Shown here piece after piece: positions 20,563-61,229 of a DNA stretch of 64,000 nt (positions within the stretch are counted from its first letter, which is position 1; the number at the start of each line of letters is the position of its first letter). The stretch is from assembly GCA_903813345.2 (NCBI GenBank), contig CAIIXF020000010.1, positions 8,734,349-8,798,348 on the forward strand, given 5' to 3'. Under the pieces are notes generated by a model. The model saw only the letters and a program-made list of their open reading frames with translations. It was not told where the DNA came from and did no database searches. A program made the translations under genes and the position numbers. Origin of the DNA: Owenia fusiformis. Its lineage: Eukaryota; Annelida; Polychaeta; Sabellida; Oweniidae.

Positions 20563-21070
20563 CTATGACACAATTTCTGTTGCCTCTATTTTAACATCAC
20601 TTTTGAACACATTTTGTTCATCTACTTTTAAAGTTTCTTTCATTGTTCCATTTAAATGTATCATAGTACTTTGTTCTGTTTTACATTTCTTTTCATCATC
20701 ATAACCACCATCATCATTCTCATCTTTTAATCTCTTTATGTTTTTAATTTCTGGTTTATGATCTTTGACATCATCCATTGTTGCTATAACAACTCCTCTT
20801 TTGTATTTCTCACCTTTTACAGTATGCACGGACTGGAGTCTTGGATTGTGCCCACCATATGTTGGAATATCAATACCAAGTTTCTTACATAGTTTACACA
20901 TAACTGTATCAACATATGAATGAATTTTTAGGTGACATTTTTTATCATGTTTGGTTGGTTGGAGATTCACAATGACGAGTTTGCCTCCATTTTTCTTTGC
21001 CAAGAGAGGTAAGTTCCCACTAGGTATGATCTGCAGGGAGGTTCCCAGGCATATACTGAGATCTGCCTTC
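20563..21070 (-). CDS. SIRT6: SIRT6 exon 6 (terminal)
   Basis: Acceptor TTATTTCAG. Encodes [38 protein letters not shown], the end of the Rossmann fold and a tail of roughly 100 residues rich in Lys, Asp and Glu. Stop TAG at 20563-20565. Confidence 0.92.
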
Positions 21071-24000
21071 CTGAAATAAGAACATTTGATTTGTTTATTA
21101 TGTCAGTAAAGCAGTGAGAAAGGAATATCTTTACAGGTAATTCATTGAAGACACATAGAAACATTTCTTATTTTAAACAACATCAGATTCTATATCAGGG
21201 CAAAACATCTTTTCTGCTTGAACCTGGTTTGAATGCAAGAGGTTGTTTTAATAAAATTTGAATGATCATTAAATTATTAGGGGTATTCTGTATACAGTTG
21301 TATTCTTCCTTTTCAAATACTGAATGTAAAATGCATTCAATAGACAGTAAAGCAAGGCATTAACATGCAAAATGTCACTACCTGCCATTGGTTACAGACA
21401 CCAAATGTCAACTACCTAACATCAACCACCATCCACAAAAACTTCAATGAGATTAATTCATAGTTGATGCCATAGGCTTAAACTAGTATGCTGGAATTCA
21501 ATGGAGTAGCAAATCCCACTGAACAAACATATTTTAAATGCCTTTTTGAGTAGAGGTCCCATAAGGTATCAGCCAATGGAATTCAATGAATTCTAAATGA
21601 CAGCCAGGACAAAAGGAGGAACAGATGGACAAACAGACAGATGGTTGGCTTCTCTATGTCACTCTCGAACTTAGCACAGATACATGGAAAATAAAGTAGG
21701 TGCGAGTAGGTAGTTACCAGTTTCATCACCAGGTGGCTCGCTCGGGTCAGATAGCATGGCGCGTATAGTAGAAAGTTCACTTTAACTTAAATTACATCTG
21801 TTTTAGTGGTTCAATTTTCATATAACCCTTATGTATCTAATATTTATGCAAATTAAAATATGTCCTGTAAAAGAAAATGTTATCTGTCCAATACAAGAAA
21901 AGATGTTTCACTTTTTGTGATTTTGTAACATGGGGTCTATTGGGAATCAACCCGAACTAGAAGTCACATTTTCAAAAAGAATTAAATTTTCAAAACCATG
22001 TTTCTAGATGTACCTCTACATGTAGATTTCAAATATGACATCACTTTGACTGAATTTTGAATATTTAACGACATAAATCAAGATTATTTCTACTCGCATC
22101 TAGTTTATTGCCAATACTGGAAAATATTTTTCGACTGTCTTGCCTTCGAAATAATAATATGTTTAACGAGAAAAACATGAAATTCACAGAAAAGCAAATC
22201 TGAGATTTCATGGTAGAAAAAACCAGGCAGGTGAAGTTTTCCCTTTAACAAAAAACTTCATTACACAAAAAATTCACAAGATACTTGTACAACTCCATTT
22301 TCAGAGAGTGTCCCAGAAAATATTAACATTACTTTATGAATGATGACATAAAAATAATCAAGTATTTTCTACCTATCCGTGTGAATACATTACATCCAAA
22401 TGTGTACAATGCCAGTTCTGACAGTGTTCACATTAGTCAGGTTTCACTGTATATTGTCAAGCAAAGTGCCTTTAACAGTCTAAATCTGACATTCTGGATT
22501 TAGTAGGAAGAAAAATGTATTTAAATAAACTTTAAGACACTGTTTTCCACCATGACAAAACAAAACAACAATTTGAAGATAAAGCATTTATTTTATGGTC
22601 TATCATGTTAAAGTACAATTAACAAGGTATGTCATTGAAATGTAGACCCTGTGCAAAGTTTGCAAATAATGTTTAATCATTCGAATATTATTTTTCTTGA
22701 CTTGGAAAATATTTGAGATATTTTTTGAAAAATAAGAAATTTGAAAAAAGGTTTCTCATCGTATCATTTTGAATATTTGAAGTTCTAGCCATTTTAGAAA
22801 ATAAAATTTAGATTATTAGATCATCAAATACAACACTTAACATTGTAAAACACATTATTTTCTCTACTCTAATGAATAGATAAGGCAAAAGTCATATTAT
22901 TTCAACCATTCAATCTATGGTTTTATGCATATATAAATGTTTAAAGCATTTTAAAAATTTTGCCGTCACAATGATACGCTGTGATGTCACTCAGGCTGGA
23001 TTTTTTTTGTACAAATGTTTTCTAAAGATGCTTTATTTTCAAAATAAAGCATTATTGTTGAATAGGTTGAAAATAAGTTTTTATCATGTTTTAAACATAA
23101 ATATACCATTGGATAAGTCAGAACAAAAACTTTAATACGCTTCTTCTCTGAACCACTTTCTAACACAAAATAGGTTTTTCGGCAATAAAAGTGGTAGCAA
23201 TCTTTGTGATTTGTTTTGCCAAAACTTGCAGACATTATTGATAACAAGGTGCCTGCCAAATTTCAAGCAAATAGGTGGAACACATGTTAAGTTATGACCA
23301 ACAAATCGACTTTATATTGGACACATTTTAAAAGTGAAACCATTTCAATTGTTATTGAAAATGATAGCTCACCCATGTGGGCTAAAAATAACCAAAAACA
23401 AAAGATGAAATGATGGGTTCCAGATTCCATTACCGCCTCCCCATGAAAAAATATAAATTCACCTGATATTTCAAAATTAATGTACTTCATATTCTCCCTT
23501 GATGTGATAAAACACTTGTGTGTTAAGTCAATACACCCTTTCTGAATTTAATGAACCCCATTTCAGGCCATTTGTGTCACAACACATAAATATTTTTCAA
23601 AGTGTACATTGCAGTCTTCATTTTATTCCTAAAAAAATTTCATTCTAACCGTGGGGGTATTTGCCCCACATTACACTCCTTTATATCCCACAGAATATAT
23701 TTTATTATAACATGAACCTATGAATTTATTCTTATTTGTTATAAACCATTTGTTAGTTCATAAGATAAGAAACCAGTGCTCTCTGACCAGTATTACATCA
23801 TCATAGGTATGTTATAAATCGTATATCTCACTATCATGGCACATATGCCCTAGTTTCTCAGAGATCATATATGCCACGATAGTGACATGACCTCTACTTA
23901 AAACACTTTTGAGCAGTCAAATTGTATGACTTGTCTCAATAGAATAAAATTCTTGTTAAGCAATACTTGGATGGCTTTGGGGTAGATCCAGTTAGAAATA

Positions 24001-39000: not shown

Positions 39001-42000
39001 AATATTTAATCATTATATTCATAGTCTTTAACAAGATTCAATAGATCCTGAAAATCATTGTGCCTAAAAAAGCAGATGTTTCAAATCATGAAATTGTTTT
39101 GAAAAAGTTAATATTTTCAAACATATATCTGCTTATAGCTATTTTTCATTGATCGGGAGTTGTTTAAGCGTCATTAATTTTAACACATAAGTGAATAAGT
39201 ATACAGCATATTTAACTTAATATCAAATATAATCTATTTCAGCTCCATAATGATAATATAAAATACAGTCATATTCACAAGGTATTATTAAAGTCAAGAA
39301 TATTCTTAAGTATTTTTTAATATTTGTTACTTTTCATATTTCAAAAGTTGATTTACCAACTTACCTTAAAGACTGCACAGTTGCGCTATCTTCAACTCAA
39401 TCCTCTGTAGAGCATATATTGTGAGAGCCGCTATCTTATATGTACACATGTAGCATCAACCAATCATTTTTCTAATAAGGTGCTAATGGTTCAGGATCAG
39501 GATTGCTCAAGAAGCATTACCTGGGCAATTTTGAAAATTATTCTAACAAGAAGTTGTAATAATACATTATTGTAAAAGATTTCAACTCTCTATTCAATCT
39601 CTATTTTTTCAAAAATCAGAATAAAGTTAGAATAAAAACGATTTGTGGGAAATCAATGGACGGCTAACTGATTTTGCTTCATAAATATGGTAACAGTTTA
39701 TTGAGTAATCTGAAGTTTGTAACTGAATGATGGGTGACTGGTTTAAGTAGACAAATCCTGCTAAAGCAAAGCCAGATTGTACAAGTACGAACCAATACAA
39801 AAATTTGTAAACAGCTCTTGAAACAAATATTGTATTAATAATTAAATCAAACTTTCGCAGTAGGCAGTAGAAAATTATTGTGTTTTGTGATATCTCAAAA
39901 TTATATACAAATTCCCAATTTTGGCAGCCATTTTGATTTTTTACCAGTTTCACAACCAAGTGGCTCGTTCGGGTCAGATAACATGGCAGATATAGTAGAA
40001 AGTTCCCTTTAACCAAATACAACAGAAAATACATGCTCACTAAATGCATGCATATGATTCCAGCAGATCCTATCTATTTATTTTTATTTATGTATCATTT
40101 TAATTTTCCCTGATAAATCTGAAAATTATAAAATTTGCTTCCCAACTTTGCCCCTCTGAGAGAATTTTGTAATTATCTAACTTTTACAGGTCTGGGAGAA
40201 CCAGCTAATAAAAAAATCTATTTTCTTATTTCTAAACATTAGAAATAGAGGTTCTTGTATGAAGAGTACCTGTGCAAGATTGTCCATTCTTGATGAGCAT
40301 TGATAATTCTTCTTAATCGAGTCGCAGACGAGATAAAGAAACATTATCAAAGCGAGTCAAGAATGGACTATATTGTACAGGTTTGAGTACAAGAAAGTTT
40401 TTCTCATATGCCTCTAAATTATGCCATATTTTCAACTTTTTATGATAAAAATGAGTGAAAATAACTTCAAATTAATGGAACTTCATCTTTCAATTGTTAT
40501 GACGTCATAACAATGTTGTAGAAAACACCTGGTTACGCGTGGCAACAAAGTCCGATTGTTATGACGTCACAATTTATCTTGTAGAATGAGCATGGATACT
40601 CATAGTAATGGTGTATCTGTTGTCATGTTGATGATGTTTTTAAACCTATGATGTCATAAGTAAATCTCATCTTGCAAGTGTGACTTTTTGGGATGAAAGA
40701 TGGCTATATCTTGCATGGGGTAAAGATGGCTGTATTTTTGTTAGTCAGAGAAATATATATTTTGCATTCTAACCCTAAAAGATATGAAGTAATAACACAG
40801 AAGCAAGTAGGTAGTCACCAGTTTCACCACCAGGTGGCTCGTTTGGGTCAGATAGCATGGTGGGTATAGTAGAAAGTTACCTTTAATTTAAATTACATCT
40901 GTTTTAGTGGCTCAATTTTCATATAACCCTTATGTATCTAATAGTTATACAAATTAAAATATGTCCAGTAAAAGAAAATGTAATCTGTCCAATACAAGAA
41001 AAGATATTTCACATTTTGTGATTTTATAGCATGGGGTCTATGGGAATCTCCCTGAACAAGAAGTCACATTTTCAAAAAAAATTAAATTTTCAAAGTTGAT
41101 AGACAATTTTGGAAACCATATTTCTAGATGTACTTTTACGGGTTGGCCTAGTGGTTAAGGCATTGGTCTGAAAAGCAGGAAGTCTGGCTTCAGGCTGAAA
41201 AGTAGAGGTCTTGGGTTCAAACCCAGGTCACAGCACTTCTTGTGATTTTTCTTTGACCTATGACTGCTGACCTATACCAGCGATTACTAGAGTGCTGCTA
41301 ACTCGATAAAAGGCTGGTGCTGGCTAGAATTGACAATGGTTCTAGCCAGGATAAAGATACCAGTTCTTCAACTCGACAATGGGAAGAACTGCCTTACCTT
41401 AGTGACTAATATGTCATGATATGACATCTAAAGAGTCAATAAAAGATATATATATACATGTAGATTTCAAATATTTAATGACGTAAATCAAGATTATTTT
41501 TACTCGCATCTAGTCTATTCCAATTTGGCAATTATGCCATCCTTAGCATTGTAAGCATAACACAAATGATTTTCCTTGAAAAATGTGGCCTAAAACACGT
41601 AGCATTTACGGATTAGGTGTTCACATTTTGAGGTTTATTTTACATTTAACAGATTTGGGATTTTGAAGAAATGGGAAACATTGATAGTCTGATCGCCCTT
41701 TTAACATTCCAAAGAATTAAAAATTGAATTCAAATGAATTTGAAGAGAGAAAAAGAGAGAGAGACAAATTACAATTGAGTCCATTCATTATTGTCAAACA
41801 TCATAAAAACATTGATTTATTGAAAATATGTGGAAATATTTGGATTCAATCGAACCATGGAATGAATAATGAAAAAAGTGTTCAATGTATGATAATCTTT
41901 GAAAAAAATGTTTTGCTACATCATAACAGGGCATTTTCTTATTTGGTGAATGTTGATAACTCATTAGAATATCACACCAAGTGCAATTAACTTACTTTGC

Positions 42001-45000
42001 ATGAGTTGTAGCATTATCAAGATCTTCATCAGGCAAGGCATCCTCCCAGTCTAGTATTGTATCATGAAGTCTACCCCTGCAATAATAAACAATCATACTG
42101 CAATAGCAGGGCATCCTCCCAGTCTAGTATTGTATCATGTAGTCTGTAGGGGTACCGCGAGCGCTCGAGTGCTCGAGCGCTCGAGCAATTCACCTCCGAT
42201 ACGAGCTGTATCGATACATAAAATGAATATCGGTCGTATTGTTGTTTTTTTTACCGGAAGTCCCTTCTTACTTACCCAGAAGGGAGGGAAAAACTCAGAG
42301 CTTAGAGATGACAGACAGTCATAGTTACGTATCTTGCTTGCCACCATACTTCCGGCTTTACAAGTTTGGAAAATTTGAATAAAGTTCAGTTTTACTTCAA
42401 TTTACGCTGTATCATTGTATCGTATCTTTCGTAACGTATCGCGAGGTCAGTATCGTAGATACGTATCGATATTAAATTTATCATATCGTGGTACCCCTAG
42501 TAGTCTGCCCCTGGAAAAATAAACAATCATACTGCAATAACAGGGCATCCTTCCAGTCTAGTATTGTATCATGAAGTCTACCCCTGGAATAATAAACAAT
42601 CATACTGCAATAACAGGGTATCCTCCCAGTCTAGTATTGTATCATGAAGTCTACCCCTGCAATAACAAACAATCATACTGCAATAACAGGGCATCCTCCC
42701 AGTCTTGTATTGTATCATGAAGTCTGCCCCTGGAATAACAAACAATCATACTTCCAGGGCCTGCATTAACGGCGTCCCATACATGTTAAGGACTCAAAAA
42801 TAATTTGGAGGACGCAAAAATTGAAAATATTTCCGTTTTTTGGATGCAAATTTTTTTAGGTCAATACTACAATGTGTTTACAACGATACCTAGCAAAAAC
42901 AAATAATTATGATCTCTCACCTTTATTTGAATCGTAAATAAGGCTCAACATGTTGACTATTTACAAATAATCATGATTCTCTCGAATTTTTTCGACTTTG
43001 TTTATTTTTAGATTTGAAACCATGACACGCCACAGTTTTTCCTATTCAGAAACAAATATTAGGTTATTCATGAAATAAAATGTATTCATTGTCGAATGAA
43101 CGAACATGCATTTATTCAGTCCGTACTTAACGTTTACTTCCATTTTAAATTCGCGGCAAGAAATCAAAAACTTAAAATATGACTAGAAATAGGGGACACA
43201 CTTTTTTTTCAAAGAACATACTTTTAAAAAAAATTGCATCCTTGGGACTCACAAATTTTCTAAACTAATGCAAGCGCTGTACTTCAATAACAGGGCATCC
43301 TCCCAGTCTAGTATTGTATCATGTAGTCTGCCCCTGCAATAACAAACAATCATACTGCAATAACAAAGTATAAATAACTAGACTTCGGAAATTGAACGAG
43401 TTCAATTTCAGACTCCAGATTCAGACCTTTTTAGCCGAGTCATCAAGAATAAGCCGAGTCATCCAGAATAAGCTGAGTCATCCAGAAAAAGATGGATGGA
43501 TAAATTAGGAAGGTAGGATAGGATAGAATAGGAAGGAACGATAGGATAGAATAAGAAAGAAGGATAGGATAGAATAGAATAGGAAAAAAGGATATGATAG
43601 GATAGGATAGGAAGGATAGAAAGGAAAAGATACGAAGGAAGGATAGATAGGAAGGATAGGATAGGATAAGATAGGAAGGATGGATGAATTTTTCAATATT
43701 TTCTTCTCTACTCTTGACTTTCTATCAGGATAGCATCAGATCGATTTTCCGAAATTTCAAAACGCTATAACTTCCGAACTGAAAGTTGGATCGAAATTTG
43801 ACTTGAAGATTCGGATTCCTGACAAAATTCTACCCCTAATTCATAACTCATATGTTAAATTTGGTAAATTTTTATTTTGACCTACTTTTCGGACACGCCA
43901 TAACTTCGGAACCAGAAATCGGATCGAAATTTGGTTTGCAGATTTGGATTTCTGAGAAAATTCTACCCCTAATTCATAACTCAAACATTAAATTTGGAGA
44001 ACTTTTTATTTTGACCTACTTTTCGGACACCATATCTCAAAAGTGGGTCAAAATACTTTCTGACGGCAAAAGGCTAACGCTATTAGCGCACTCTTGGCTA
44101 CATGTATACACAATTTCGAGGAATATAATTAAAGTGTAGTGTCAGAATCACAAAAATAAGAAAAACCTTTGGATTTGACCTAGATTTTGACCTAGGCATT
44201 TTGGTGTCAAAATTTTGAAGCTAGATGGCTTTTGAGGTCCCCTTCTTTCAAAGGCTTTCATTAAATTAAGCTGAACTCAGTCTACATTTGGTATTTTTCA
44301 CTTCAAAAAAATCTATTTTTCCCATTGACTTAACATGGGCACCAAATTTAGCGATTTTTGAACTTTGAAAACGACATAACTTCCGATACTGAACCTAAAT
44401 AGACTATATAATGGTCTTTACTGGATACCTTATAGTTATTGAAAAAACTCTGAAAGAATAATAAGAATAAGAAGAATACTGGCAAAAACAATAGACTCCA
44501 GATTGACATCTGGAGTCTAATAAAGAATAATAATAAAGAAGAATACTGACGAAAACAATAGACTCCAGATTTACATCTGGAGTCTAATAATAAGAAGAAT
44601 ACTGGCAAAAACAATAGACTCCAGATTTTCAATCTGGAGTCTAATAATTACAAAAACAGCAGCTTAACAAAGTAACAAATACCATGTTAAATTGATGCAT
44701 AAATTATTAATAAAATTGTAAATTGAGCCATTTTGAAAAAGAGCCTCATTCTGAAAAACTAATTTTCCATATGAAATGCAATACAGCAACCAAGTTATTT
44801 GAAGTTAGTAAATTATACACCAGGGAAACATACAAGTTTTTTTTAATAACCAATATATCCAATAAAGTAGCTTATGGAATATAATGTCTCAGATATCAGA
44901 GATATTTTTCTACTTCACTCAGGATAAACTCATATAACAAAACTTAGTGTATTGTGCTTGTCCCGCAAAAGATATCTGTTTACCTGCATATATTCCTACG

Positions 45001-48000
45001 CTTGACCTGGGTGCAGTTATTTCCTGTGGGGCGCAGCGCCATTGTGGGTACAGGGGTTCTTCTGATGTACTGGAAGTGACATTATTTCTTTAATTATTGA
45101 ACACTATTTAAGGAATAAAGATAGAGATTTTATGATTTATGGCGTGATATATGACCAAAAATTTTATTCTGTTCATTGTTAAAAGACCGAAATCGCGTAG
45201 CGATTGAGGTCTTTGGCAATGGCCAGAATAAAATTTGAGGTCATATATTTGACATAAATCATAAAATCGAGGTCTTTGTTACGATTCTAATATGATAAAC
45301 AGACAAGAAACACGACTATTTGCATTTATGAATTTTATCAGTCATACATACTCTTATATAGACCAGAAAATCAATTGTTCTAGCTAGTGTGACGTCACAT
45401 ATCATATTAGAATAAATATTATAGAATGTCTAAGTCAAGCTATTATTGGGCAGACATCTTGAATTTCATGATATGAATCTAATTCAAAGGCAAGATAATT
45501 TACTGTTAAATATGATTTCCATTTGCATATCTTAACGCAAACTCCCATATTTGGTCAACCATTACGGAACTCCAAACCTGACTCCTTATGGCCTAGTCAC
45601 ATAGCCCGGCCGATGTCCGGCATCGGTAGAGCTCGGTGGATTTTTTTGGTGCCACCGAGCTCTCCTCATCGGAAGCAGAGCTCGGTGACGTGAACGGACT
45701 CCGTCCGGACATCTTCAGGCGACCGACCGAACACCGGCCGGTGACCGTACGGAGTCTGTCTCAAAATGGTAGTTTTTTTCTGCCGATGTGGCAGCAACTA
45801 CCGGCCGGAGGTCGGCCGGACATCGGACGGAATACGGCCGATACCCGAGCAGGTAACAGGACACCGTGCGATCGCCGGCCGGGTTGTTAACGGGCTTTGA
45901 ACAGTGACCGGCTGATGCTCTGTCCCACATCGGCCGGAGCTCGGTCGATGCTCGGCCGCTGTCCGTTAAAAAACCTCGTCCTCTGGTTGTCTCAGATGCA
46001 CGGGACACCAGCCGATACTCGGCCGTGCACCGGCCGACGTGTTTTCCGATGTGGTTACGATGGGGCTGCGATGACATGATGAGGGAGCTCGGTGAGAGCC
46101 CGGTGAAATTTAACTCCGAAGTTAAAATTTCACCGAGCTACCACCGATGCGGTTTTAAGCAACAAACGCCACGGATGTCCGGCCGGTGTCCGGCCAGTGT
46201 TCGGCCGAGTTCGGTGAAAATTGCATCGCTGGCTCATCGTAACCTCATCGGCCGGGCTATGTGACTAGAGTCCATTTCACTGCTTCATTTCGTCAGTAGA
46301 ACGGCAAAAATAAGAAATTGGGAGACCATTGTGCAATAATATATGGAAAAGTATATTCATAATGTACATGAATGACATTTGTATATTTCAGATTTTTTAG
46401 TTTTTTGTGCAATAAGCCTGTGCCGTCTTGTAATTTGAAGAATTTCAGCCATGTTAATCTTATAGAAAATAACATGGCAGAGAAACATCCAAATATAAGA
46501 GGCCACACACTTTATAAGCCAAACTAGAAGCAATCCAAGATATACAAATGTCATTCATGTACATTATGAATATACTTTTCCATATATTATTGCACAATGG
46601 TCTCCCAATTTCTTATTTTTGCCGTTCTACTGACGAAATGAAGCAGTGAAATGGACTCTAGGCCATTAGGGTAGAACCATAAAAATATAAATTATAAGAT
46701 TTAAATCGGTTTTATTTTACTTATTTACATGAATTTATACATATATAATTCAGTAAAATGTATTTTCAGTTTGCGCTCGGACAGATTGATACAAGGCATT
46801 AACATAAAAATACATCACCACCTGGTGTGCTATTGCAAATGGTTACAAATTTAGAGTGTCACAATTTGTTACAAACATTGACTATAACTAAGTGCAAATT
46901 TTGAAGTCGGTCTAAACAATACTAATGTTAAGTTCTTGAAAGTTGTAAGAAAATTATCTGTTTCCATGGTAACATATGTTCATTGCCATATTAACTGAAA
47001 CTGCCAAAAATGTCATGCTAAAAGTCGTAACATGTCTATATGTGCTGCCAACAAAAATTTCAAGTCCATGTGAATACTTCTTAAATTATTGCAAATGGTT
47101 ACAAAATGCCATGGTAATAAATATTTGCAGAATTATATTGGATATTGTTCACAGTAAAAATTTGAAGTCAGATTTAACAGTACTTGTTGTTGTAACAGTG
47201 GAATATATAAATTAATGGACTGTAACAAATAGCTGGATTTGTTACTTTAAAAAAAACATCACTAGCATTGGTGAAATAAAACATACAACAATGGTGGGCC
47301 AACTGAGTGAAAAAAGGCTGATTTTTTCAAAATAAAGGAAAAGTAAAAAAAAAAGATTAGCCAGGATTTGCCAAGGGGATTTACTCTGGACAACTTTGGC
47401 CCAAAAATGCAGAAGCACTCGTTGGCATAATCTTCACCATCAAAACCAGAGTTTGCCATTATCCAAATCTGCCTTTGCAAAAATGTGAACAGTTCATAAT
47501 TAGAGTCGTTTGTGTTATTTTTGGGAGTTTCACATATTGCTCAGGTCCATATAGTAAAATAAATTCCTTCATAACTAGTACTAATACCCCTAGAACAGGC
47601 CTGGCAAGGTGGTAATAAGAGCAATTACCTCATTTAAGCAGGCAATATGAAATAATATCTTCAGACAGCTAATAGCTGACGTCAAACAGTGGAGACGTAT
47701 TATATTGAAAATAATAAATAACTTAATGGAATTGTCTTAATTGGTGCACCAATTGTATCAGGATGAGCTGCGAATATTCTACAAATGACAGTCTTTAATT
47801 GACATACACTATTCTCTGTCAATCAGTGGCTAAAACCAGATGTCAGGACACTAATTAGGATATTATGGATTTCCTTAATTGTGATATACAACAGTGATGT
47901 ACTTTTACATAATCAATTCATTATGCCTTTAAAAATACAATATGCAAATTATGAATTTTGGTGGCAATAATAAGCTGATAATTAACCCAAAACACACACA

Positions 48001-54000: not shown

Positions 54001-57000
54001 AAATTAATTTAAAAAAAAAAAAAAAATTCAAGATGGCGCTGCTACAGAGTACTTTCAGGAAATATATTCACAGTTTTAAACATATATATTTTGTCCCCTC
54101 AATTTAGCGGAGGGATATAACTGTGTACTTAGGCCTACATAAGATGTCAAACTTTTTAAACTAACTGTAATGCCATTTTTCTTAAAGTTTGCAGACAAGG
54201 ATTTTAGCATTTGTCTTCAAAATGGCCGACAGAAAGTAGGTATATATAGGCCCCCATAAGTTATATTTGAAAATTTAAAGATGATATCTCTAGCAGTTTT
54301 GGAGAAAACTAAGACATACAGACAGAAGGAAAGACATACAGACATACATATGCCCCTAGGCCGACAATATGGCCCTGTACTATATGGTGGGGACATAAAA
54401 AGTTCCTATAACGTCAATATTCATTAAATTTGAATCAATTTTCATATTCCATTTTAATTTGATTACTATACAATTGAAATTATTTGGTAAGTAAAAGAAA
54501 ATATTATCAAGTTTCATTTTTCATGATTTTTATAACATAGGTTTTATTTATTCATATGACAAAAATGTCCAATCTTTCAATTCTGTAACACATCGCAGAC
54601 ATCATCATTAGCTTGTTTGAATTTACTAATATTGTCTATCCAGTCTATCCATCTATCTTTCTTACAATTGATTCTTACCTGAGTTTTGCATTTGTCGCAT
54701 TCTTCTATAAACATGTTCCCATGTAGTTCAGAAAGACGATTACGAGGGAAACCAGACTTTATATGGAGCCCATCTATGTTCTGCGTGATAACATACTTCA
54801 CCATGCCTAAAATGTAATAATAATATAATTCGATATCTAAAACTCTTGTTTTAAGATCCCTTTCCTAGAACTTTATTCTATCTTTGTCCAACTTAGAGCT
54901 GCATAATCAATACTTGATCGCATAAAATACCATATCAAAGGCATACCATACCGTGGAAATTATAAAATTGCAGCATATACCATCTGGGTGTCTTGCTGGT
55001 TGTTATTATATTGTATATTGTAAAATTATGAGATAAATTAGGATTATATTTTGAACTCTGAAAAAGTATACAATTGATCCCATAATGTTATAAAAATGAT
55101 TACGGTCATCATGGTATTGTGCTCAATTGGTTTAAATAAAAATCATCCAGTTCAAACATTCAGCATCCAGTATTTACATTGAGGGGTCGATGACCTTTCA
55201 TTTTATACATTAATGATATATTTTTAAGATATAATATTATTTATTATTAATTATATTTACATGTTTACTCTACATTCTACTAACTCCCTGTTAAGTGGCA
55301 TCGTGCAAAAAAGTCATCTATATTTATTACTTCAATTGTTAAAGCGTAAAATAAAATATAAATTAATTAATAAAGTGTTTTCATTAACTCAAAAAATATT
55401 GCCTGGAAATTTTATTTTTGTTTTTGTGAGCTTGCAAATCGAAAAGATTTAACATTATCCGTTAATCAATTTAATTTCCCTCATAGAGGTATAATCAGAA
55501 TTGCCCTCTATATCTCTCTGACTGAAGCTTTAATCAATGGAGAAGTTGCAATATAGATGAATAAATAGATGGCAGCGGTGGTTTTGGCGGGGCCAGAATA
55601 CTAGTTTATTATATAAAGACAGCTGGCAAAAGTCTTTTTTTTCTTGATTTATTTTATTACAAGTATTAAGAAAATGAACATTTTTAACATTGTGTCAATT
55701 GGGATTAAGCCAGACCCTTTTTTAGAAAACTTAAAAAATCCTTGGAAACAGAATTCAGTAAAATATCATACAGAATTCAAATATGTCATTAACGTAAACA
55801 TAAAAATTTTGGTTGAGACTTGAGATAATATATGCAGTGTCATTCAAAATTGAAACTTCTGATTGGGTTCGAAGCCGAGATGCCCAGATATAACTGAGCA
55901 ATAGCCGGAATTCACATGATTTTTCACGAAGAAGGGGTGGAGTTTAAGCGAGATTCATCGAGACATCTTCGTGTCAATTGTGTCAATCCCTGCATTGCTT
56001 ATTGTTAACTCCACCTTTTTGCCCATATATGGAGATGCCACTTGCGAGAATGAACTGTTCAGTCTAGAAATTTCTTAAAGGGAGAATGCTGATAAATCGG
56101 TCCTAAAAACTCAAAAAAATCGTTGGTGCCTCAAACCTGTCCCTAAAGAATGTCTATGACCCCAAGTTACTTCTGTCAAAATATCAAAGTCTGAAAAAAA
56201 TCACTCACATTGATATCAACGAAACATCTTTCAGTTTTGATCAACTGCGAGAGCAAAATTCAGGCTGAGCTAAACAGTTTTCGTTCATCGTAAAATTGAC
56301 ATGGTTTTAACTAACTTTTTACAGTATAGAGGGCCTTTGACCTATTTTTAGCTACGCCATCTAGTTTAATAGAAAAAATATTAGTTTTTAACGATTAAAA
56401 ATGTAGATCTCCCCAAAACACATTAAAATGACATTTAAATGAAATTTCAAAGCTATACAGCATAACCCTCCATTAGGCAGGCAACATAGTTTTATAATAT
56501 ATGATATTAGCATATTCTATGATATATTCCATATACGATATTAGTATAGTCTTATACAGTGATTGAAGGAAAACAGAAAATGATTGTACAGTGATAAATA
56601 GAGGGAGTAAGAATATAGATAGTTCTCAAGATAGCATAGTGGTACATTTGTGATGTTGTAACTTCCTTTCCTCAATCTTTCTACAATACACAGAAAAATG
56701 CAAAATGTTATTTGTTACAGATGCTGTACTCTGAACCAAACTGCTAAAAGCTGTCACAAAAAGGTTGGAGATCATAACTGTTACAATATGTCAACACTTT
56801 TGGTGGTGACATAAAAATGTATTTTTACCACAAGTAACAGTGTGTCAACTGAATGATTAACATAATGTTCTAAAATCAACTCATTTTCAGATTCACTAAA
56901 AATTACTTTGATTACAAGAGAAACCAAAACCTAGTATGATTTCATGAGATAGTTACAGTCGCTATTGTTCATAACATGTATCATCACCATTCACTGCACA

Positions 57001-60000
57001 ATTATCAGCTAATTTGCGTGCATAGTGACTAAACATCTCTTTAGCTAAAGCACTGTGTATTCCTTAATAAGCGCTCTCCCGCTTAGAGTCTCATTAAAGA
57101 ATGTAAGAAGCAATAAAAAATGGCAGTAAAATCAATGTATCAATTTCAATCAATAACATGTTATCCAATACCTATATTTCATAAGATTTAACATACTGTA
57201 ACAAAGGCCTAGCCAGCTTTCGATTATGGAATAAGCGATCAAAATTTTTTTTAAAGATTTTTGATGTAACTTCAAATTTGAGCTAGAAGCTTCAAATAAA
57301 AACATTTTAAAGCTCTTTTCTTCTATTATCTAATGGTTCTATTTGTATTAATGAACCCACTCTCTGGTTATGGTCAAAGGACCCATGTTTACACATTCTA
57401 GATAACTGAGGTTTTAAGATTAATTGCAAACAAACTCATGTAATTTTCAATTTCAAAATCTATGAGCATACAAAGATTATGAATTGCACATTCATTCAAG
57501 TGCATTAAATGTCATCGAATAAAACTGGTTGATATCATATGTAAGAATGATACTTTGCCTTTATGTAATTCTATGTTCTCAAGTATGAATTATGCAACCA
57601 GGGTCAAATATGCAAAATTTTGCTGTGTGTATGGAATGGCATGAATTGTATCATACAATTGCTACTTCCTAGGTGATTCTGGTAGATAACTGGACTAGAG
57701 AAAATGGCATGCTGCCTGTTACTTAACCCCTGTTACCAATACTTAATGCCTTACTTGCCTGCTCTGGGGCAACTAGGGCCATGTGGGTGAGAGTTGGTTT
57801 GGCTGTAAATGAAACCCCTGTTACCAATACTTAATGCCTTACTTGCCTGCTCTAGGGCAACTAGGGCCATGTGGGTGAGAGTTGGTTTGGCTGTAAATGA
57901 AACCACTGTTACCAATACTTAATGCCTTACCTGCCTGCTCTAGGGCTACTAGGGCCATGTGGGTGAGAGTTGGTTTGACTGTAAATGAAACCCCTGTTAC
58001 CAATACTTGATGCCTTACTTGCCTGCTCTAGGGCAACTAGGGCCATGTGGGTGAGAGTTGGTTTGGCTGTAAATGAAAACCCTGTTACCAATACTTAATG
58101 CCTTACTTGCCTGCTCTAGGGCAACTAGGGCCATGTGGGTGAGAGTTGGTTTGGCTGTAAATGAAACCACTGTTACCAATACTTAATGCCTTACCTGCCT
58201 GCTCTAGGGCTACTAGGGCCATGTGGGTGAGAGTTGGTTTGGCTGTAAATGAAACCACTGTTACCAATACTTAATGCCTGCCTTACCTGCCTGCTCTAGG
58301 GCTACTAGGGCCATGTAGGTGAGAGTTGGTTTGGCTGTAAATGAAACCCCTGTTACCAATACTTAATGCCTGCCTTACCTGCCTGCTCTAGGGCTACTAG
58401 GGCCATGTAGGTGAGAGTTGGTTTGGCTGTAAATGAAACCCCTGTTACTAATACTTAATGCCCTACCTGTCTGCCCTAGGGCTACTAGAGCCATGTGGGT
58501 GAGGGTTGGTTTGGCTGTAAATGAAAACCCTGTTACCAATACTTGATGCCTTACTTGCCTGCTCTAGGGCAACTAGGGCCATGTGGGTGAGAGTTGGTTT
58601 GGCTGTAAATGAAAACCCTGTTACCAATACTTGATGCCTTACCTGCCTGCTCTAGGGCAACTAGGGCCATGTGGGTGGGAGTAGGTTTGGCTGTAAATGA
58701 AACCACTGTTATGTTATCAATACTTAATGCCTTACCTGCCTGCTCTAGAGCTACTAGGGCCATGTGGGTGAGAGTTGGTTTGGCTGTAAATGAAAACCCT
58801 GTTACCAATACTTGATGCCTTACTTGCCTGCTCTAGGGCTACTAGGGCCATGTGGGTGAGAGTTGGTTTGGCTGTAAATGAAAACCCTGTTACCAATACT
58901 TAATGCCTTACCTGCCTGCTCTAGGGCTACTAGGGCCATGTGGGTGAGAGTTGGTTTGACTGTAAATGAAACCCCTGTTACCAATACTTAATGCCTTACT
59001 TGCCTGCTCTAGGGCAACTAGGGCCATGTGGGTGAGAGTTGGTTTGGCTGTAAATGAAACCCCTGTAACCAATACTTAATGCCTTACTTGCCTGCTCTAG
59101 GGCAACTAGGGCCATGTGGGTGAGAGTTGGTTTGGCTGTAAATGAAACCCCTGTAACCAATACTTAATGCCTTACTTGCCTGCTCTAGGGCAACTAGGGC
59201 CATGTGGGTGAGAGTTGGTTTGACTGTAAATGAAACCACTGTTACCAATACTTAATGCCTTACCTGCCTGCTCTAGGGCAACTAGGGCCATGTGGGTGAG
59301 AGTTGGTTTGACTGTAAATGAAACCACTGTTACCAATATTTGATGCCTTACCTGCCTGCTCTAGGGCTACTAGGGCCATGTGGGTGAGAGTTGGTTTGAC
59401 TGTAAATGAAACCCCTGTTACCAATACTTAATGCCTTACTTGCCTGCTCTAGGGCAACTAGGGCCATGTGGGTGAGAGTTGGTTTGACTGTAAATGAAAC
59501 CCCTGTTACCAATACTTGATGCCTTACTTGCCTGCTCTAGGGCTACTAGGGCCATGTGGGTGAGAGTTGGTTTGGCTGTAAATGAAACCCCTGTTACCAA
59601 TATTTGATGCCTTACCTGCCTGCTCTAGGGCTACTAGGGCCATGTGGGTGAGAGTTGGTTTGACTGTAAATGAAACCCCTGTTACCAATACTTAATGCCT
59701 TACTTGCCTGCTCTAGGGCAACTAGGGCCATGTGGGTGAGAGTTGGTTTGGCTGTTAATGAAACCACTGATACCAATACTTAATGCCTTACTTGCCTGCT
59801 CTAGGGCAACTAGGGCCATGTGGGTGAGAGTTGGTTTGACTGTAAATGAAACCACTGTTACCAATATTTGATGCCTTACCTGCCTGCTCTAGGGCTACTA
59901 GGGCCATGTGGGTGAGAGTTGGTTTGGCTGTAAATGAAACCCCTGTTACCAATACTTAATGCCTTACTTGCCTGCTCTAGGGCTACTAGGGCCATGTGGG

Positions 60001-61229
60001 TGAGAGTTGGTTTGACTGTAAATGAAACCCCTGTTACCAATACTTAATGCCTTACCTGCCTGCTCTAGGGCTACTAGGGCCATGTGGGTGAGAGTTGGTT
60101 TGACTGTAAATGAAACCCCTGTAACCAATACTTAATGCCTTACCTGCCTGCTCTAGGGCAACTAGGGCCATGTGGGTGAGAGTTGGTTTGACTGTAAATG
60201 AAACCACTGTTACCAATACTTAATGCCTTACCTGCCTGCTCTAGGGCAACTAGGGCCATGTGGGTGGGAGTAGGTTTGGCTGTTAATGAAACCACTGATA
60301 CCAATACTTGATGCCTTACCTGCCTGCTCTAGGGCTACTAGGGCCATGTGGGTGAGAGTTGGTTTGGCACTCTCAAATGTCACATCCACAGTTGGGGATT
60401 TACCCTCCTTTTCTAATGTCCACACACCTGCAATGATTGACACAATAATATTGTTTCATGATATTTTTTCTCACAAATATTCGGAAAATACCCCATGAAG
60501 TATGATCAAAATAATTCATGATATTCCCACAGGGGCTTGTCTGGAAGATTGGCCAGAGCCCTCAAAAACAGAAAACACTAGGGCTCCCCCCGATCTTCAA
60601 TACAAGCCCCTTTGGGTATTTCAGCAAAAGTATATTTCCATAAAAACTGGGTAAATATTATTTTTAAAAGGTTGGATTTTACTTTTTATGAAGGTAATGG
60701 TAAAGGTAAATCCAAGTGACATTCCAAGGTACTTACATAATGAAAATTTGCCAATTCAAAATTTTAAATTAAAAGTTGCAAATTGAAATGTCATGTTGTA
60801 ATCTATTGACAGTATATGTACACTGAAACCTGTATATCCAAACACCTCTCTAATTGGAATATCTCTCAATGTGAACACTTTTTATCAGTTCTAAATGTGT
60901 TCTATTGACATTACAGATTCATAAAACCTTGAAACACCTGCTTATCTGAACACTTTTGGATGGTCCCAGAGGCGTTCCGATGAGACAGGTTTTACTGTAC
61001 ATGTATTTAACAACAAATACTCACCATTAGGACCTCTAAAATCTGGAATACCAGAAGCAGTGCTGATTCCGGCTCCTGTATGCACAACAATGTGCTTGCT
61101 TTCACGAACCAGTTTCTCTAATGCTGCAACATTATCTTCCAGTGTGACATCATTGTCAAATGTTTCAGGAAGGCCGACTTTCCCTTTATTTTCATATGTA
61201 GATAGGCCAGAGGCATAGTTAACAGACAT
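20563..61229 (-). CDS. SIRT6: SIRT6, NAD-dependent protein deacylase, six exons over 41 kb, complete
   Basis: Exons (transcript order) 61229-61025, 60427-60320, 54806-54679, 45069-44984, 42076-41996 and 21070-20563 join in frame at GT-AG sites into 371 residues (human 355). SIRT6 is a nuclear NAD-dependent deacetylase and defatty-acylase acting on histone H3 (K9, K56) and in DNA repair. Visible: [10 protein letters not shown] start as in mammals, GAGIST at 52-57, QNIDGLH at 113-119, catalytic His133 in ELHGNMF, zinc-binding Cys141, Cys144, Cys166 and Cys175 (the human fourth Cys is 177, so that loop is 2 residues shorter), and [15 protein letters not shown] and [12 protein letters not shown] for NAD binding. 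The C-terminal tail is Lys/Asp-rich with basic patches that may localise it. Introns 1-5 are about 0.6, 5.5, 9.6, 2.9 and 20.9 kb. Introns 2 and 4 hold tandem arrays made from exon 2 and exon 5 with their splice sites. Intron 5 contains a whole GPCR gene. Confidence 0.93.
21700..22108. repeat. dispersed repeat, copy A (empty-site copy)
   Basis: About 410 bp closely resembling 40806-41530 (GTAGGTAGT.ACCAGTTTCA, GGTGGCTCG, GTCAGATAGCATGG, TAGTAGAAAGTT...). Copy A lacks the SINE found in copy B. A third partial copy lies at about 39945-40015. Confidence 0.7.
24724..24892. mobile_element. MITE copy, same family as 45112-45286
   Basis: Imperfect inverted ends TCTGTGATTTATGG / CCATAAATCATAGA. The core, CTGTTCATTGTTAAAAGACC ... 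GAGGTCTTTGGCATTGGC, is shared almost word for word with the copy in SIRT6 intron 3. Confidence 0.65.
24928..25378. mobile_element. fold-back element of about 450 bp
   Basis: Inverted ends CTACAATGC...ATAGATAATCC.TGGATTA and TAATCCAGGGATTATCTAT...GCATTGTAG. No coding sequence. Target duplication not resolved. Confidence 0.55.
25505..26293 (+). pseudogene. degenerate mariner-like element with transposase C-terminal remnant
   Basis: Inverted arms of about 180 bp, starting CAAGGCCTG... and ending ...CAGGCCTTTT beside AT-rich TA-containing flanks. Between them, 25691-26008 reads as the end of a mariner transposase: [20 protein letters not shown] then, after one in-frame TAG at 25943-25945, [18 protein letters not shown]. 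This resembles the mariner LF..LK..LRG.RF...EV and W.KC....GDYFE ends. It is clearly dead: stop codon, no N-terminal domain and no intact DDE triad visible. Confidence 0.6.
26340..27121. mobile_element. 782-bp fold-back element, TTTAGCCTTGCCCAAGTC ends
   Basis: Inverted ends TTAGCCTTGCCCAAGTC / GACTTGGGCAAGGCTAA with inner ACCGCCTTGT / ACAAGGCGGT pairing. Flanked by 7-bp direct repeats ATAGGCA at 26333-26339 and 27122-27128. A single end of the same family is present at about 19236-19252. No transposase recognised. Confidence 0.65.
27328..28172 (-). CDS. GPCR exon 2 (TM3-TM7 and tail)
   Basis: Begins [20 protein letters not shown] at the start of TM3 and runs to the stop at 27328-27330. The open frame extends further upstream to 28200 but that part is intron. 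Confidence 0.87.
27328..34740 (-). CDS. class A (rhodopsin-like) orphan GPCR, two exons, nested in SIRT6 intron 5
   Basis: Exons 34740-34488 and 28172-27328 join in phase (ATAG/GTAATT donor, TTTTTCAG acceptor) into 365 residues. Seven hydrophobic segments are visible. Landmarks: NTT glycosylation site at 5-7, GN in TM1 (42-43), LACAD in TM2 (67-71), Cys99 and Cys178 as the likely disulphide, CWVP in TM6 (260-263), and a Ser/Thr-rich tail with a CGC cluster for possible palmitoylation. The DRY motif at the end of TM3 is CRT (124-126) and NPxxY in TM7 is NCYIY. The TM3-ICL2-TM4 and ECL2 pattern ([19 protein letters not shown]) most resembles the melatonin-receptor/moody-like group, but ligand and orthology are unknown. 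An AG acceptor directly before the ATG suggests a 5'-UTR intron. The gene lies wholly inside SIRT6 intron 5 on the same strand. Confidence 0.85.
28173..30849. other. GPCR intron, proximal part, nothing recognised
   Basis: AT-rich, without open frames of note, palindromes or tandem repeats that I could support. Also part of SIRT6 intron 5. Confidence 0.5.
30850..32634. mobile_element. CAG...CTG element with GTCCCGCGAA internal repeats, interrupted by a hAT-like fold-back
   Basis: Ends CAGAGCTGTCAAG / GGTTGACAGTACTG, flanked by perfect 6-bp repeats TGTACT at 30844-30849 and 32635-32640. Both outer parts (30850-31000 and 32290-32620) are degenerate tandem arrays of TCCCGCGAA(TTT) type, far richer in CpG than the surroundings. 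A 675-bp second element (31259-31933) lies inside. A perfect 24-bp palindrome built on ATGGGCTTTCAA is at 31993-32016. No transposase. Confidence 0.7.
31259..31933. mobile_element. hAT-like fold-back element with 8-bp target duplication
   Basis: Long inverted arms of about 265-280 bp begin AGGGTTTGTAGAAAAAACC and contain repeated GGGTACCGGGTA. The flanking 8-bp repeats are ATCTAGAA at 31251-31258 and 31934-31941. The spacer holds GGCGTAGCCAGG and a run of about 18 C. An 8-bp duplication and these ends fit the hAT superfamily. A piece of the same arm recurs at 57253-57340. Confidence 0.75.
32641..34487. other. GPCR intron, distal part, nothing recognised
   Basis: AT-rich. A degenerate GTAGTGTA-rich stretch occurs at 34380-34425. 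No exon or transposon could be supported. Confidence 0.45.
34488..34740 (-). CDS. GPCR exon 1 (N-terminus, TM1-TM2)
   Basis: ATG at 34740 directly follows TTTTGTAG, an acceptor-like sequence. Encodes a short extracellular N-terminus, TM1 ([20 protein letters not shown]) and TM2 ([18 protein letters not shown]). Confidence 0.8.
34902..35099. mobile_element. 198-bp CAG...CTG MITE with CAGGTGGGTGCAA repeats
   Basis: Starts CAGGGATATCCTCC and ends GGGGAGATCACTG, imperfect inverted ends. Flanked by 5-bp repeats ATCTT at 34897-34901 and 35100-35104. Internally the motif (CAGGT)GGGTGC is repeated five times. Confidence 0.65.
35296..36554 (+). mobile_element. 5'-truncated L1/Tx1-like non-LTR retrotransposon, C-terminal part of ORF2
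   Basis: An open frame of 409 codons from ATG 35325 (readable back to about 35300) to the stop at 36552-36554. It lacks endonuclease and the reverse transcriptase core and begins in the thumb/connector region (FLWKG...[25 protein letters not shown]), typical of L1-clade ORF2. Near its end [17 protein letters not shown] gives a C-X2-C-X7-H-X4-C knuckle. Not a host gene. The insertion point and target duplication could not be fixed. No stop codons within 1.2 kb suggests a fairly young insertion. Confidence 0.72.
36835..37392. mobile_element. 558-bp TA-flanked MITE, CAGGGTGGT ends
   Basis: Ends CAGGGTGGTAAAAAA / TTTTTTGACCACCCTG, flanked by TA at 36833-36834 and 37393-37394. Inner inverted pairs include CCATATTC / GAATATGG and ATGTAC/GTACAA blocks. 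Tc1/mariner-type non-autonomous element, related by its ends to 16559-16805. Confidence 0.65.
37393..38497. other. SIRT6 intron 5, AT-rich with a dispersed-repeat fragment
   Basis: Positions around 37740-37800 carry TGCGAAATCCCACATAAGGC and GCGGCCATTTTAAATTAGAA, which reappear in reverse orientation at about 12885-12945. Otherwise nothing recognised. Confidence 0.45.
38498..38697. mobile_element. 200-bp CAG...CTG MITE with perfect 15-bp inverted ends
   Basis: CAGGCCCGTAGCCAG and its exact reverse complement at the two ends. Flanked by 5-bp repeats ACATC at 38493-38497 and 38698-38702. Interior has several G runs followed by TTCG. The ends resemble those of 6924-8242 (CAGTGGCGTAGCCAGG). Confidence 0.8.
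38698..41136. other. SIRT6 intron 5, 5' part: repeats only
   Basis: No exon seen. Contains a 143-bp fold-back element (40253-40395), a partial dispersed-repeat copy (39945-40015), the repeat copy B from 40806, and a perfect 16-bp palindrome GTTATGACGTCATAAC near 40498. Confidence 0.45.
40253..40395. mobile_element. 143-bp fold-back element
   Basis: Arms TTCTTGTA...GTACCTGTGCAA..TGTCCATTCTTGA and TCAAGAATGGACTATATTGTACAGG...TACAAGAA pair with few mismatches around a centre with GAGTCGCAGACGAG. Confidence 0.6.
40806..41530. repeat. dispersed repeat, copy B (carries a SINE)
   Basis: Matches 21700-22108 through most of its length, apart from the roughly 320-bp SINE inserted after ...AGATGTAC.TTTAC. 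After the SINE, the similarity resumes at ATGTAGATTTCAAATAT. Confidence 0.7.
41137..41450 (+). mobile_element. tRNA-derived SINE
   Basis: Starts with a tRNA-like head: GGGTTGGCCTAGTGGTTAAG (A box) and GGTCTTGGGTTCAAACCC (B box). A tRNA-unrelated body follows, ending near GTCAATAAAAG and an (AT)n tail. The unoccupied paralogous site at about 22015-22030 confirms it as an insertion. Confidence 0.75.
41996..42076 (-). CDS. SIRT6: SIRT6 exon 5
   Basis: 81 nt, acceptor TTATTGCAG, donor GCAAA/GTAAGT. Encodes [19 protein letters not shown] and DNATTHAK, matching mammalian [19 protein letters not shown]. Its acceptor and first 40 nt are the source of the 73-bp array in intron 4. Confidence 0.92.
42147..42499. 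mobile_element. 353-bp hAT-like element in the SIRT6 exon-5 array
   Basis: Ends TAGGGGTACC / GGTACCCCTA, flanked by 8-bp repeats GTAGTCTG at 42139-42146 and 42500-42507. Contains palindromic GAGCGCTCGAGTGCTCGAGC near its left end and several CGATACGT-like motifs. An 8-bp duplication fits hAT. Confidence 0.8.
42755..43279. mobile_element. 525-bp CAG...CTG element in the SIRT6 exon-5 array
   Basis: Ends CAGGGCCTGCATTA / TAATGCAAGCGCTG (imperfect inverted repeats), flanked by 6-bp repeats TACTTC at 42749-42754 and 43280-43285. No transposase. Confidence 0.8.
43500..43686. repeat. GGATAGGA/GGAAGGAT-type simple repeat
   Basis: Almost pure purine tract built from GGATA, GGAAG and AGAATA blocks. 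The minus-strand open frame across it is an artefact. Confidence 0.9.
43764..44030. repeat. tandem duplication, about 135 bp twice
   Basis: CATAACTTC.GAAC..AAA.., GGATCGAAATTTG, AATTCTACCCCTAATTCATA and TTTTGACCTACTTTTCGGAC occur in the same order in both halves, with roughly 15-20 percent difference by eye. Confidence 0.75.
44487..44643. repeat. three tandem hairpins AGACTCCAGAT...ATCTGGAGTCT
   Basis: Three copies of CAATAGACTCCAGAT-N5-7-ATCTGGAGTCTAATAA separated by GAAGAATACTGRCRAAAA-type spacers. Each copy is a near-perfect 11-bp-stem hairpin. The half-site AGACTCCAGAT also appears alone near 43411. Confidence 0.8.
44984..45069 (-). CDS. SIRT6: SIRT6 exon 4 (second zinc Cys pair)
   Basis: 86 nt, acceptor CTTCCAG, donor GCAG/GTAAAC. 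Encodes [19 protein letters not shown] and [10 protein letters not shown], matching the mammalian YVRDTVVGTMGLKATGRLC region. It is too short for ordinary ORF listing. Its phase fits exons 3 and 5 exactly. Confidence 0.88.
45112..45286. mobile_element. MITE copy, same family as 24724-24892
   Basis: Imperfect inverted ends around GATTTTATGATTTATGGC / CATAAATCATAAAATC, with the same core (TTCTGTTCATTGTTAAAAGA, TTGAGGTCTTTGGCAATGGC) as the copy in intron 5. It sits just upstream of SIRT6 exon 4 (in transcript sense). Confidence 0.65.
45588..46666. repeat. long inverted repeat with 122-bp identical arms, one arm split by a GC-rich element
   Basis: 46265-46386 and 46540-46661 are exact reverse complements over 122 bp (ends CTAGAGTCCATTT / AAATGGACTCTAG), with a 153-bp spacer. 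The right arm continues into CTAGGCCAT. The matching ATGGC of the left arm lies at 45588-45592, on the far side of the GC-rich insertion. So the original arms were at least 127 bp. Confidence 0.85.
45597..46264. mobile_element. GC-rich 668-bp element with 19-bp perfect ends and CTAG target duplication
   Basis: Ends TCACATAGCCCGGCCGATG and its exact reverse complement, flanked by CTAG at 45593-45596 and 46265-46268. The undisrupted opposite arm of the surrounding inverted repeat has a single CTAG at this point, which confirms a 4-bp duplication. The interior is GC-rich and full of CGGCCGA/TCGGCCG motifs and GAGCTCGGTG blocks, unlike anything else in the window. Its open frames look like by-products of composition. 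Confidence 0.8.
46667..49369. other. SIRT6 intron 3 DNA with weak dispersed repeats
   Basis: No exon seen. 48420-48780 holds three degenerate copies of a roughly 115-bp module containing GATCCAAAATGG, TTAACCCAGAA and CAGTTTGAGAT. Related fragments are at 52120-52225 and 54185-54235. Confidence 0.45.
49370..51540 (-). mobile_element. 5'-truncated non-LTR retrotransposon, Jockey/CR1-type reverse transcriptase
   Basis: Uninterrupted frame of 675 codons (51526 to the stop at 49499, readable a little further 5') with a full reverse transcriptase domain: [12 protein letters not shown] (51-62), [20 protein letters not shown] (109-128), [12 protein letters not shown] (181-192), [10 protein letters not shown] (241-250), YADD (272-275) and [10 protein letters not shown]. 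The C-terminal [18 protein letters not shown] matches the C-X-C...H...C motif common at the end of Jockey-group LINEs. The endonuclease and ORF1 are missing. A 3' tail (49370-49498) with AATAAACTTTGTA follows. No frame damage, so the insertion is young or recently active. Antisense reading frames here are shadows. Confidence 0.88.
52794..54024 (+). mobile_element. 5'-truncated L1-like retrotransposon with poly(A) tail and 13-bp target duplication
   Basis: Flanked by AATTCAAGATGGC at 52781-52793 and 54025-54037, and ends in a run of about 13 A beginning near 54012, preceded by AATAAATTAATTT. The coding part (52794 to about 53175) is the end of an L1-type ORF2 with [18 protein letters not shown] (C-X2-C-X6-H-X4-C). 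The apparent start ATG at 52789 belongs to the target duplication, not the element. A fold-back element (53177-53886) interrupts the last part of the frame. Confidence 0.85.
53177..53886. mobile_element. 710-bp fold-back element nested in the L1-like copy
   Basis: Inverted arms of about 310 bp (53177-53488 and 53577-53886) start GGAGGAGGGAAATTAGCGCA and contain CAACCCACCCACATG. They are roughly 95 percent alike by eye. Flanks TTTGAAA (53170-53176) and TTTGGAAA (53887-53894) may be an imperfect target duplication. Removing the element would let the L1 frame continue to a stop near 53941. Confidence 0.75.
54038..54678. other. SIRT6 intron 3 next to exon 3, nothing recognised
   Basis: Contains a short ACAGACA/GACATACA-rich stretch (54312-54350) and ATGGCCGAC motifs shared with nearby repeats. 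The minus-strand frame of exon 3 runs on to 54577, but this part is intron after the GTAAGA donor. Confidence 0.45.
54679..54806 (-). CDS. SIRT6: SIRT6 exon 3 (catalytic His, first zinc Cys pair)
   Basis: Acceptor CATTTTAG, donor ACTCAG/GTAAGA, ends in phase 0. Encodes [26 protein letters not shown] with His133, and CDKCKTQ. Confidence 0.93.
54807..57730. other. SIRT6 intron 2, AT-rich, one transposon fragment
   Basis: No exon or RNA gene seen. 57253-57340 (GAGCTAGAAGCTTCAAATAA, AAAGCTCTTTTCTTC) matches the arms of the hAT-like fold-back at 31259-31933, so it is a decayed relative. Confidence 0.5.
57731..60319 (-). repeat. 88-bp tandem array of SIRT6 exon-2-derived mini-exons, 29 copies
   Basis: Starts exactly at the donor of SIRT6 exon 2 and runs downstream in the transcript. 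The period is 88 bp (three units of 92-93 bp from small insertions). On the minus strand each unit is GTAAGGCAT...TTTCATTTACAG (40 nt), then 48 nt matching the 3' end of exon 2, then the next GTAAGG. The 48 nt, in the exon's own phase (1-1), encode [16 protein letters not shown]. Variants by eye are mostly silent or conservative (GTA/GTT for Val, Ala/Val at position 1, Leu/Pro at 5). The last exon base is G (GCAG/GTAAGG) in some units and A (GCAA/GTAAGG) in others. No in-frame stop seen in the 48-nt parts. Confidence 0.93.
60320..60427 (-). CDS. SIRT6: SIRT6 exon 2
   Basis: 108 nt, phase 1-1, residues 69-104: [20 protein letters not shown] then [16 protein letters not shown]. Acceptor ATTGCAG, donor GCAG/GTAAGG. 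The 3' 48 nt and the donor are the source of the 88-bp array that begins directly downstream. Match to mammalian FESARPTQTHMALVQLE is clear. Confidence 0.92.
60428..61024. other. SIRT6 intron 1, nothing recognised
   Basis: 597 bp, AT-rich, GTGAGT donor and ATTGCAG acceptor. No repeat or regulatory element could be supported. Confidence 0.6.
61025..61229 (-). CDS. SIRT6: SIRT6 exon 1
   Basis: Encodes residues 1-68, [10 protein letters not shown] to IPDFRGPN, with GAGIST. Donor AATG/GTGAGT, phase 1. The ATG at 61229 is preferred over an in-frame upstream ATG at 61280 because it matches the mammalian start. The upstream part is a dispersed repeat, and an AG acceptor (TTGTAG) sits just before GATGTCTG, suggesting a 5'-UTR intron. 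Confidence 0.9.

Follow-up and report, generated by a model that had tools for sequence, protein, structure and literature searches.

The window analysed here is the whole stretch of 64,000 nucleotides of Owenia fusiformis DNA, and the gene that concerns us lies on its minus strand. By sequence this gene is SIRT6, the name already given to it in an earlier note on the same DNA: exon 1, compared with the PDB SIRT6 chains, gives a best E value of 9.9e-22. Two tandem arrays whose units run across an exon–intron boundary lie within the gene, one at the end of exon 2 and the other at the start of exon 5. In the order of transcription, the features are:

61025..61229, minus strand: SIRT6 exon 1, coding part, 205 nt from the ATG, whose translation matches PDB SIRT6 chains
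60320..60427, minus strand: SIRT6 exon 2, 108 nt, phase 1-1, the last 48 nt being unit 0 of the array
about 57725..60367, minus strand: the 88-bp array, of the 5′ splice-site type, made up of the exon 2 end and 29 copies
54807..60319, minus strand: SIRT6 intron 2, which contains the 88-bp array
54679..54806, minus strand: SIRT6 exon 3, encoding the QNIDGLH strand, with a phase 1 junction to exon 2
44983..45081, minus strand: SIRT6 exon 4, approximate limits from tblastn (49% identity, E 3.5e-4)
42077..43371, minus strand: the second SIRT6 array, a mirage of the 3′ splice-site type with 73-bp units, in intron 4 beside exon 5
41996..42076, minus strand: SIRT6 exon 5, its end read from the sequence
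20851..21072, minus strand: SIRT6 exon with GTSLQI, approximate limits (E 2.7e-26)

The introns of the gene also hold elements of other kinds. Intron 3 contains a 675-aa open frame (window 49499-51526, minus strand), which we take, from its reverse-transcriptase-like motifs (YADD), to be probably a non-LTR retrotransposon. Intron 4 contains short palindromic elements (ACTCCAGATT...AATCTGGAGT) in about three repeats at window 44453-44663.

The exon 2 array starts at the exon itself and spans about 2.6 kb, with a period of 88, 29.9 copies and 94% matches at 57725-60368 according to Tandem Repeats Finder. Each unit consists of the last 48 nt of exon 2 followed by a 40-nt spacer, which opens with GTAAGG and closes with ACAG. 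When the array is cut at the repeated motif it yields 30 units: unit 0, which is the authentic end of exon 2, and then 29 copies, so that the repeat finder and the cutting together confirm the direct 88-bp repeat of 29 copies that had been described as running for 2.6 kb from the exon 2 donor. Unit length is nearly constant: among units 0 to 28, 26 are 88 bp long, two are 92 and one is 93, and the insertions responsible (4 nt twice, 5 nt once) all fall within the spacer. The last unit grades into other intron sequence. The units are 94% alike and three of them are identical; the distance between two units does not predict how much they differ, and three variants in the spacer of unit 0 recur in unit 6. 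Queried with one unit, the 498-Mb assembly returned 30 matches, all of them in this array; the number is a lower bound, and very common words were skipped. We therefore reject a dispersed satellite as the source of the repeat, the one-unit query having matched nothing but the array at SIRT6 exon 2.

The splice signals are copied along with the rest of the unit. Each of the 29 added units has an AG immediately in front of it, and in all 30 units the 48-nt part is followed by a GT, in the same 1-1 phase as the real exon, just as the earlier note had it. If a single added unit is placed between exons 2 and 3, the frame stays open through exon 3 for 29 of 29 units, and inclusion of all 29 would extend the protein by 464 aa with no stop. 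When a later donor is used in place of exon 2's own, a premature stop results in every one of the 29 cases, and plain read-through from exon 2 meets a stop at the donor of the next unit. The donor context is CAG/GT, like that of the real donor, in 16 of the 30 units and CAA/GT in the other 14. The statement that every unit carries a GTAAGG donor and a TTTACAG-like acceptor is thus right for the GT and AG, all of which are intact, and too broad for the longer motifs: one unit has GTAGGG, and two have TTAACAG rather than TTTACAG. The proposal that the acceptor arose by mutation of exon sequence can be kept only as one of two possible origins, since the intron sequence beyond the final unit (GTTAAGTAACAG) is also similar to the TTAACAG form.

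The second SIRT6 array repeats the opposite kind of boundary, each unit taking in the acceptor and, beyond it, 36-40 nt from the start of exon 5. Its five extra copies start at 42145, 42583, 42656, 42725 and 43329, with other DNA between some of them. A 353-bp element at 42147-42499 interrupts this array; its ends are 10-bp inverted repeats (TAGGGGTACC/GGTACCCCTA) and it is flanked by the 8-bp direct repeat CAGACTAC, the length of which makes the element hAT-like. The element inserted later than the exon 5 array formed.

Arrays of this kind are found at other genes of the genome. We sampled myosin, kinesin and sirtuin genes at 25 ten-kilobase loci, and of the 111 domain exons tested there 7 have a boundary-spanning array. 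A locus entered the sample if it had several exon matches inside 10 kb, a choice biased towards compact genes, and the count covers domain exons only. Six of the seven exons (in loci L004, L009, L013, L029, L033 and L039) have near-identical copies across the boundary, where a copy was required to have 85% identity over 25 nt with 12 nt within the HMM match, and the seventh array, at L037, is degenerate and comes from the repeat finder and from reading. In total 125 exons in 27 loci were examined, the two loci outside the 7/111 being L007 (12 myosin exons) and L038 (2 exons), of which the latter was chosen because its array was already visible. A looser first pass over 67 exons gave weak matches in L006, L008 and L015, which are not counted. 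Both sides of the exon are represented: the arrays at L009 (with approximately 4 nt of exon copied), L033 and L037 are on the donor side, and those at L004, L013, L029 and L039 on the acceptor side. At L033, 16 extra copies of approximately 91 bp, one of them partial, repeat a kinesin exon end with its donor (1851-3384). At L038, 17 extra copies of approximately 159 bp (18 units) repeat the acceptor of a kinesin exon (C2:23266359-23269174), and both the consensus and the units read have a stop beyond the exon part. The variable columns of L038 number 8 of 126 in the exon part versus 5 of 33 outside it, with 5 of the 8 at third codon positions, which is a hint of constraint on the exon part in columns too few to decide the matter. 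Locus L007 (C9:37986009-37994334) is of a different appearance: it holds 12 copies of a myosin heavy chain exon, all covering one stretch of the profile (approximately 18-84), and these copies mostly differ from each other, one pair being 98% alike over 257 bp. It looks like a large cluster of alternative exons.

We can also ask how often such contacts are expected from random placement. Contact of arrays with exons of any kind is at the random level, with 6 of 28 observed versus 6.07 expected. Contacts with one edge of an exon are more frequent than that: 6 versus 1.16 expected in a first null, 5 of 28 versus 1.46 (P = 0.015) in a null that bars exon-destroying placements, and 4 of 13 versus 1.46 (P = 0.049) within gene spans. 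The array at L037 is a contact in the first null and not an edge in the second, since its HMM match crosses an intron. These counts are a hint that arrays prefer exon edges, and part of the excess may be due to selection removing arrays elsewhere in exons, for which the second null allows.

The pattern of substitutions among the 30 units of the exon 2 array looks like that of unconstrained sequence. Variable columns are equally dense in the exon part (12/48) and in the spacer (10/40; Fisher P = 1), in a count that leaves out the run-out end of the last unit, and third codon positions account for 5 of the 12 variable exon columns with 4 expected (P = 0.37; positions counted by hand). Coding constraint on the copies was thus not found, either as a difference in density between exon part and spacer or as a codon-position bias. 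Nor do the intact features of the units say much. With 22 variable columns among 88, the chance that none falls in the four splice columns is 0.31, so the intact GT and AG columns are unsurprising; and of the 141 single-nucleotide changes that could occur in the 47 nt examined only 3 create a stop codon, so the open frames carry little information. The frame itself is easily obtained: 6 of the 10 AGs in the unit give a length divisible by 3. An in-frame open segment from an AG to a GT is also present in four of eight other exon-edge arrays (L004, L038, L039 and SIRT6 exon 5) and absent from L009, L013, L029 and L033, one unit having been read for each. The comparison took the first unit of each array and counted any bare stretch between an AG and a GT that was 12 nt or longer, had a length divisible by three and was open in the frame of its exon. 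As half of the other arrays have such a segment, an open frame like that of the SIRT6 unit is best seen as a frequent accident. The SIRT6 unit is unusual in another respect, in having an acceptor of ordinary strength in addition to the open frame, the acceptor scoring having been done for the SIRT6 array alone. Of the three options offered in the earlier note, mini-exons that make isoforms find no positive support here, the substitutions being spread evenly over exon part, spacer and codon positions, and neutrality gains from the equal density of variable columns and the absence of a codon-position bias.

Whether the spliceosome could use the units depends on distances and on signal strength. 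From 131 of 252 matches we obtained 72 approximate introns, taken as the gaps between neighbouring domain exons of sirtuin, myosin and kinesin genes; within the accuracy of such lengths the shortest is about 118 nt and the median 323 nt. In a set of 34 introns with inferred sites the shortest is 133 nt, and no short introns were found hidden inside the matches at L036 and L040. The 40 nt between adjacent units is therefore far under the shortest inferred introns (118-133 nt), and the doubt already expressed about the spacer as an intron is well founded. Splice-site strength was scored with a matrix from the same 34 introns, which is partly circular, the sites having been picked by generic consensus. 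On this scale the usual unit acceptors outscore 12 to 21 of the 34 inferred acceptors, compared with 11 for the real exon 2 acceptor and 2 for the form present in two units, and the unit donors outscore 33 of 34 (CAG, CAG/GTAAGG) or 15 of 34 (CAA). Judged from the sites, exon 2 could thus be spliced to one of the distant units. A stable RNA structure across the array was not found: three units fold worse than shuffled sequences (z = +1.89), 193 of 200 shuffles folding at least as well, and Rfam gave no known structured RNA in 57000-61500. The idea that a stable structure loops the array out is rejected, the folding being weaker than that of shuffles.

The SIRT6 array can be compared with several known systems. 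The lancelet repeats called mirages occur at Adh3, the globins BflGb6 and BflGb9 and PGBD5, and at troponin C as cited there; the available text of the two reports (PMC3087553, PMC3902484) describes both boundary types and splicing that is undisturbed. As far as that text goes, they have in common with the SIRT6 array tandem units that span the boundary, an authentic boundary that is itself one of the units, copied splice signals, and occurrence in several genes of one genome. The differences are in scale, in organism and in kind of evidence: the BflGb6 haplotypes described have 6 and 3 units, whereas the SIRT6 array has 29 extra copies in a genome that is not a lancelet's, and the lancelet mirages are known together with their splicing whereas the SIRT6 array is known from the genome sequence alone. 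No description of mirages outside lancelets was found in the literature searched, which takes in few subscription journals.

In the human ABCA7 gene, according to the available part of PMC5954066, a VNTR in intron 18 (25-bp unit, 23.7 repeats in the reference) alters splicing in people. Its units adjoin an exon and carry the donor of that exon, exon 18, as the SIRT6 units do for exon 2, but the ABCA7 unit as described there starts at the donor GT whereas the SIRT6 unit starts inside the exon. Intron gain through tandem duplication of a boundary or AGGT segment, as in potato RdRp and the Rogers model, is a further parallel (PMC4974935, available part), since there too a copied segment crossing the boundary brings ready splice sites; in the cases that it describes the new intron is spliced, whereas the SIRT6 array offers candidate sites. 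Among annelids, the earthworm metallothionein genes have large intronic minisatellites with monomers mostly of approximately 180 bp, and in one clone the duplicated fourth exons are absent from the transcript (PMC12783039). The available part of that report contains no description of tandem units across a splice site, such as the SIRT6 array has.

The arrays of mutually exclusive exons or micro-exons in Dscam and the schistosome MEGs are made of copies that diverge and are expressed. They resemble the SIRT6 array in being rows of small phase-symmetric exons; the SIRT6 units, unlike those copies, are near-identical, with no sign of constraint and with only 40 nt of spacer between them.

We consider it highly probable that the SIRT6 exon 2 array is a neutral mirage minisatellite, perhaps with occasional splicing noise. 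Of six features listed for mirages three are present here and none is contradicted: the units span the exon–intron boundary with the authentic boundary included, the copies are intronic and repeat the splice signals (GT 30/30, AG 29/29), and several genes in one genome are affected, at both boundary types. The array would have begun as a tandem duplication of a short stretch across the 3′ end of exon 2 and the first part of intron 2, and its later growth to 30 near-identical units within intron 2 would be due to replication slippage or unequal exchange. The ACAG at the unit junction would lie 48 nt ahead of the donor by chance, which would make the copies resemble in-frame mini-exons. The real exon 2 would keep its own 3′ splice site and be spliced to exon 3 from its own donor; the array would be excised together with intron 2, with little effect on fitness. 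Splicing at array sites, if any, would be rare noise, with two outcomes: choice of a later donor would shift the frame and bring in a premature stop, and a distant unit taken up as an exon would lengthen the protein by 16 residues and leave the frame intact. On the other side of the balance stand the unit splice sites, which are by no means poor, the 29 open units in frame, the human ABCA7 repeat, which does alter splicing, and the hint of constraint at L038.

The premature stops raise another reading, in which the array lowers or tunes the output of SIRT6 much as the ABCA7 repeat does: use of the extra donors would give frameshifted transcripts that are degraded, and more copies would mean less protein. 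The 30 successive donors, of which 16 are CAG/GT like the real one, and the premature stop that follows from all 29 later donors would suit such a role, and the available account of the human ABCA7 VNTR, which contains the exon's donor, indicates that retention of a unit can occur. Set against this, the lancelet mirages are reported, in the available text, without disturbance of splicing, and the folding of three units (z = +1.89) offers no structure to present or hide sites. We regard such tuning as very improbable.

A use of the units as real alternative mini-exons is very improbable. Transcripts would then sometimes include one or a few non-adjacent units, and every included unit would give the protein another 16-residue copy of the helix that precedes the QNIDGLH strand. 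The evidence for exon cassettes of this kind consists of intact, ordinary splice sites, which make them possible: the phase is 1-1, all 29 units are open, the 29 AG and 30 GT are intact, acceptor scores are ordinary and donor scores strong, and from exon 2 to the second added unit the intron would be 128 nt, close to the shortest seen. This reading has to contend with the lack of any sign of coding constraint, with unit-to-unit introns of 40 nt that are far shorter than any inferred in the genome, with an in-frame segment that is a likely accident, and with the probable harm to the enzyme of helix copies beside the NAD site. A bolder form of it, that the genome repeatedly copies exon edges beyond random array placement and that the SIRT6 array is a bank of 29 in-frame proto-exons, some of them spliced in at a real rate and adding helix copies beside the NAD pocket, is very doubtful.

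Arrays of this kind also carry a warning: gene predictors may call their units exons, as happened with lancelet PGBD5 according to the available text of PMC3902484.

Two Hox genes in the assembly match a UbdA-type peptide at 90-91%, and this peptide marks protostomes. The repeat type was already known in lancelets; the addition made here is that mirages occur commonly in a protostome, at 7 of 111 exons in a small sample, with as many as 29 extra copies. The SIRT6 array is a natural test of how the spliceosome chooses among 30 near-identical donors, and the exon-edge arrays of this genome are a place to seek the birth of introns and exons by tandem duplication.
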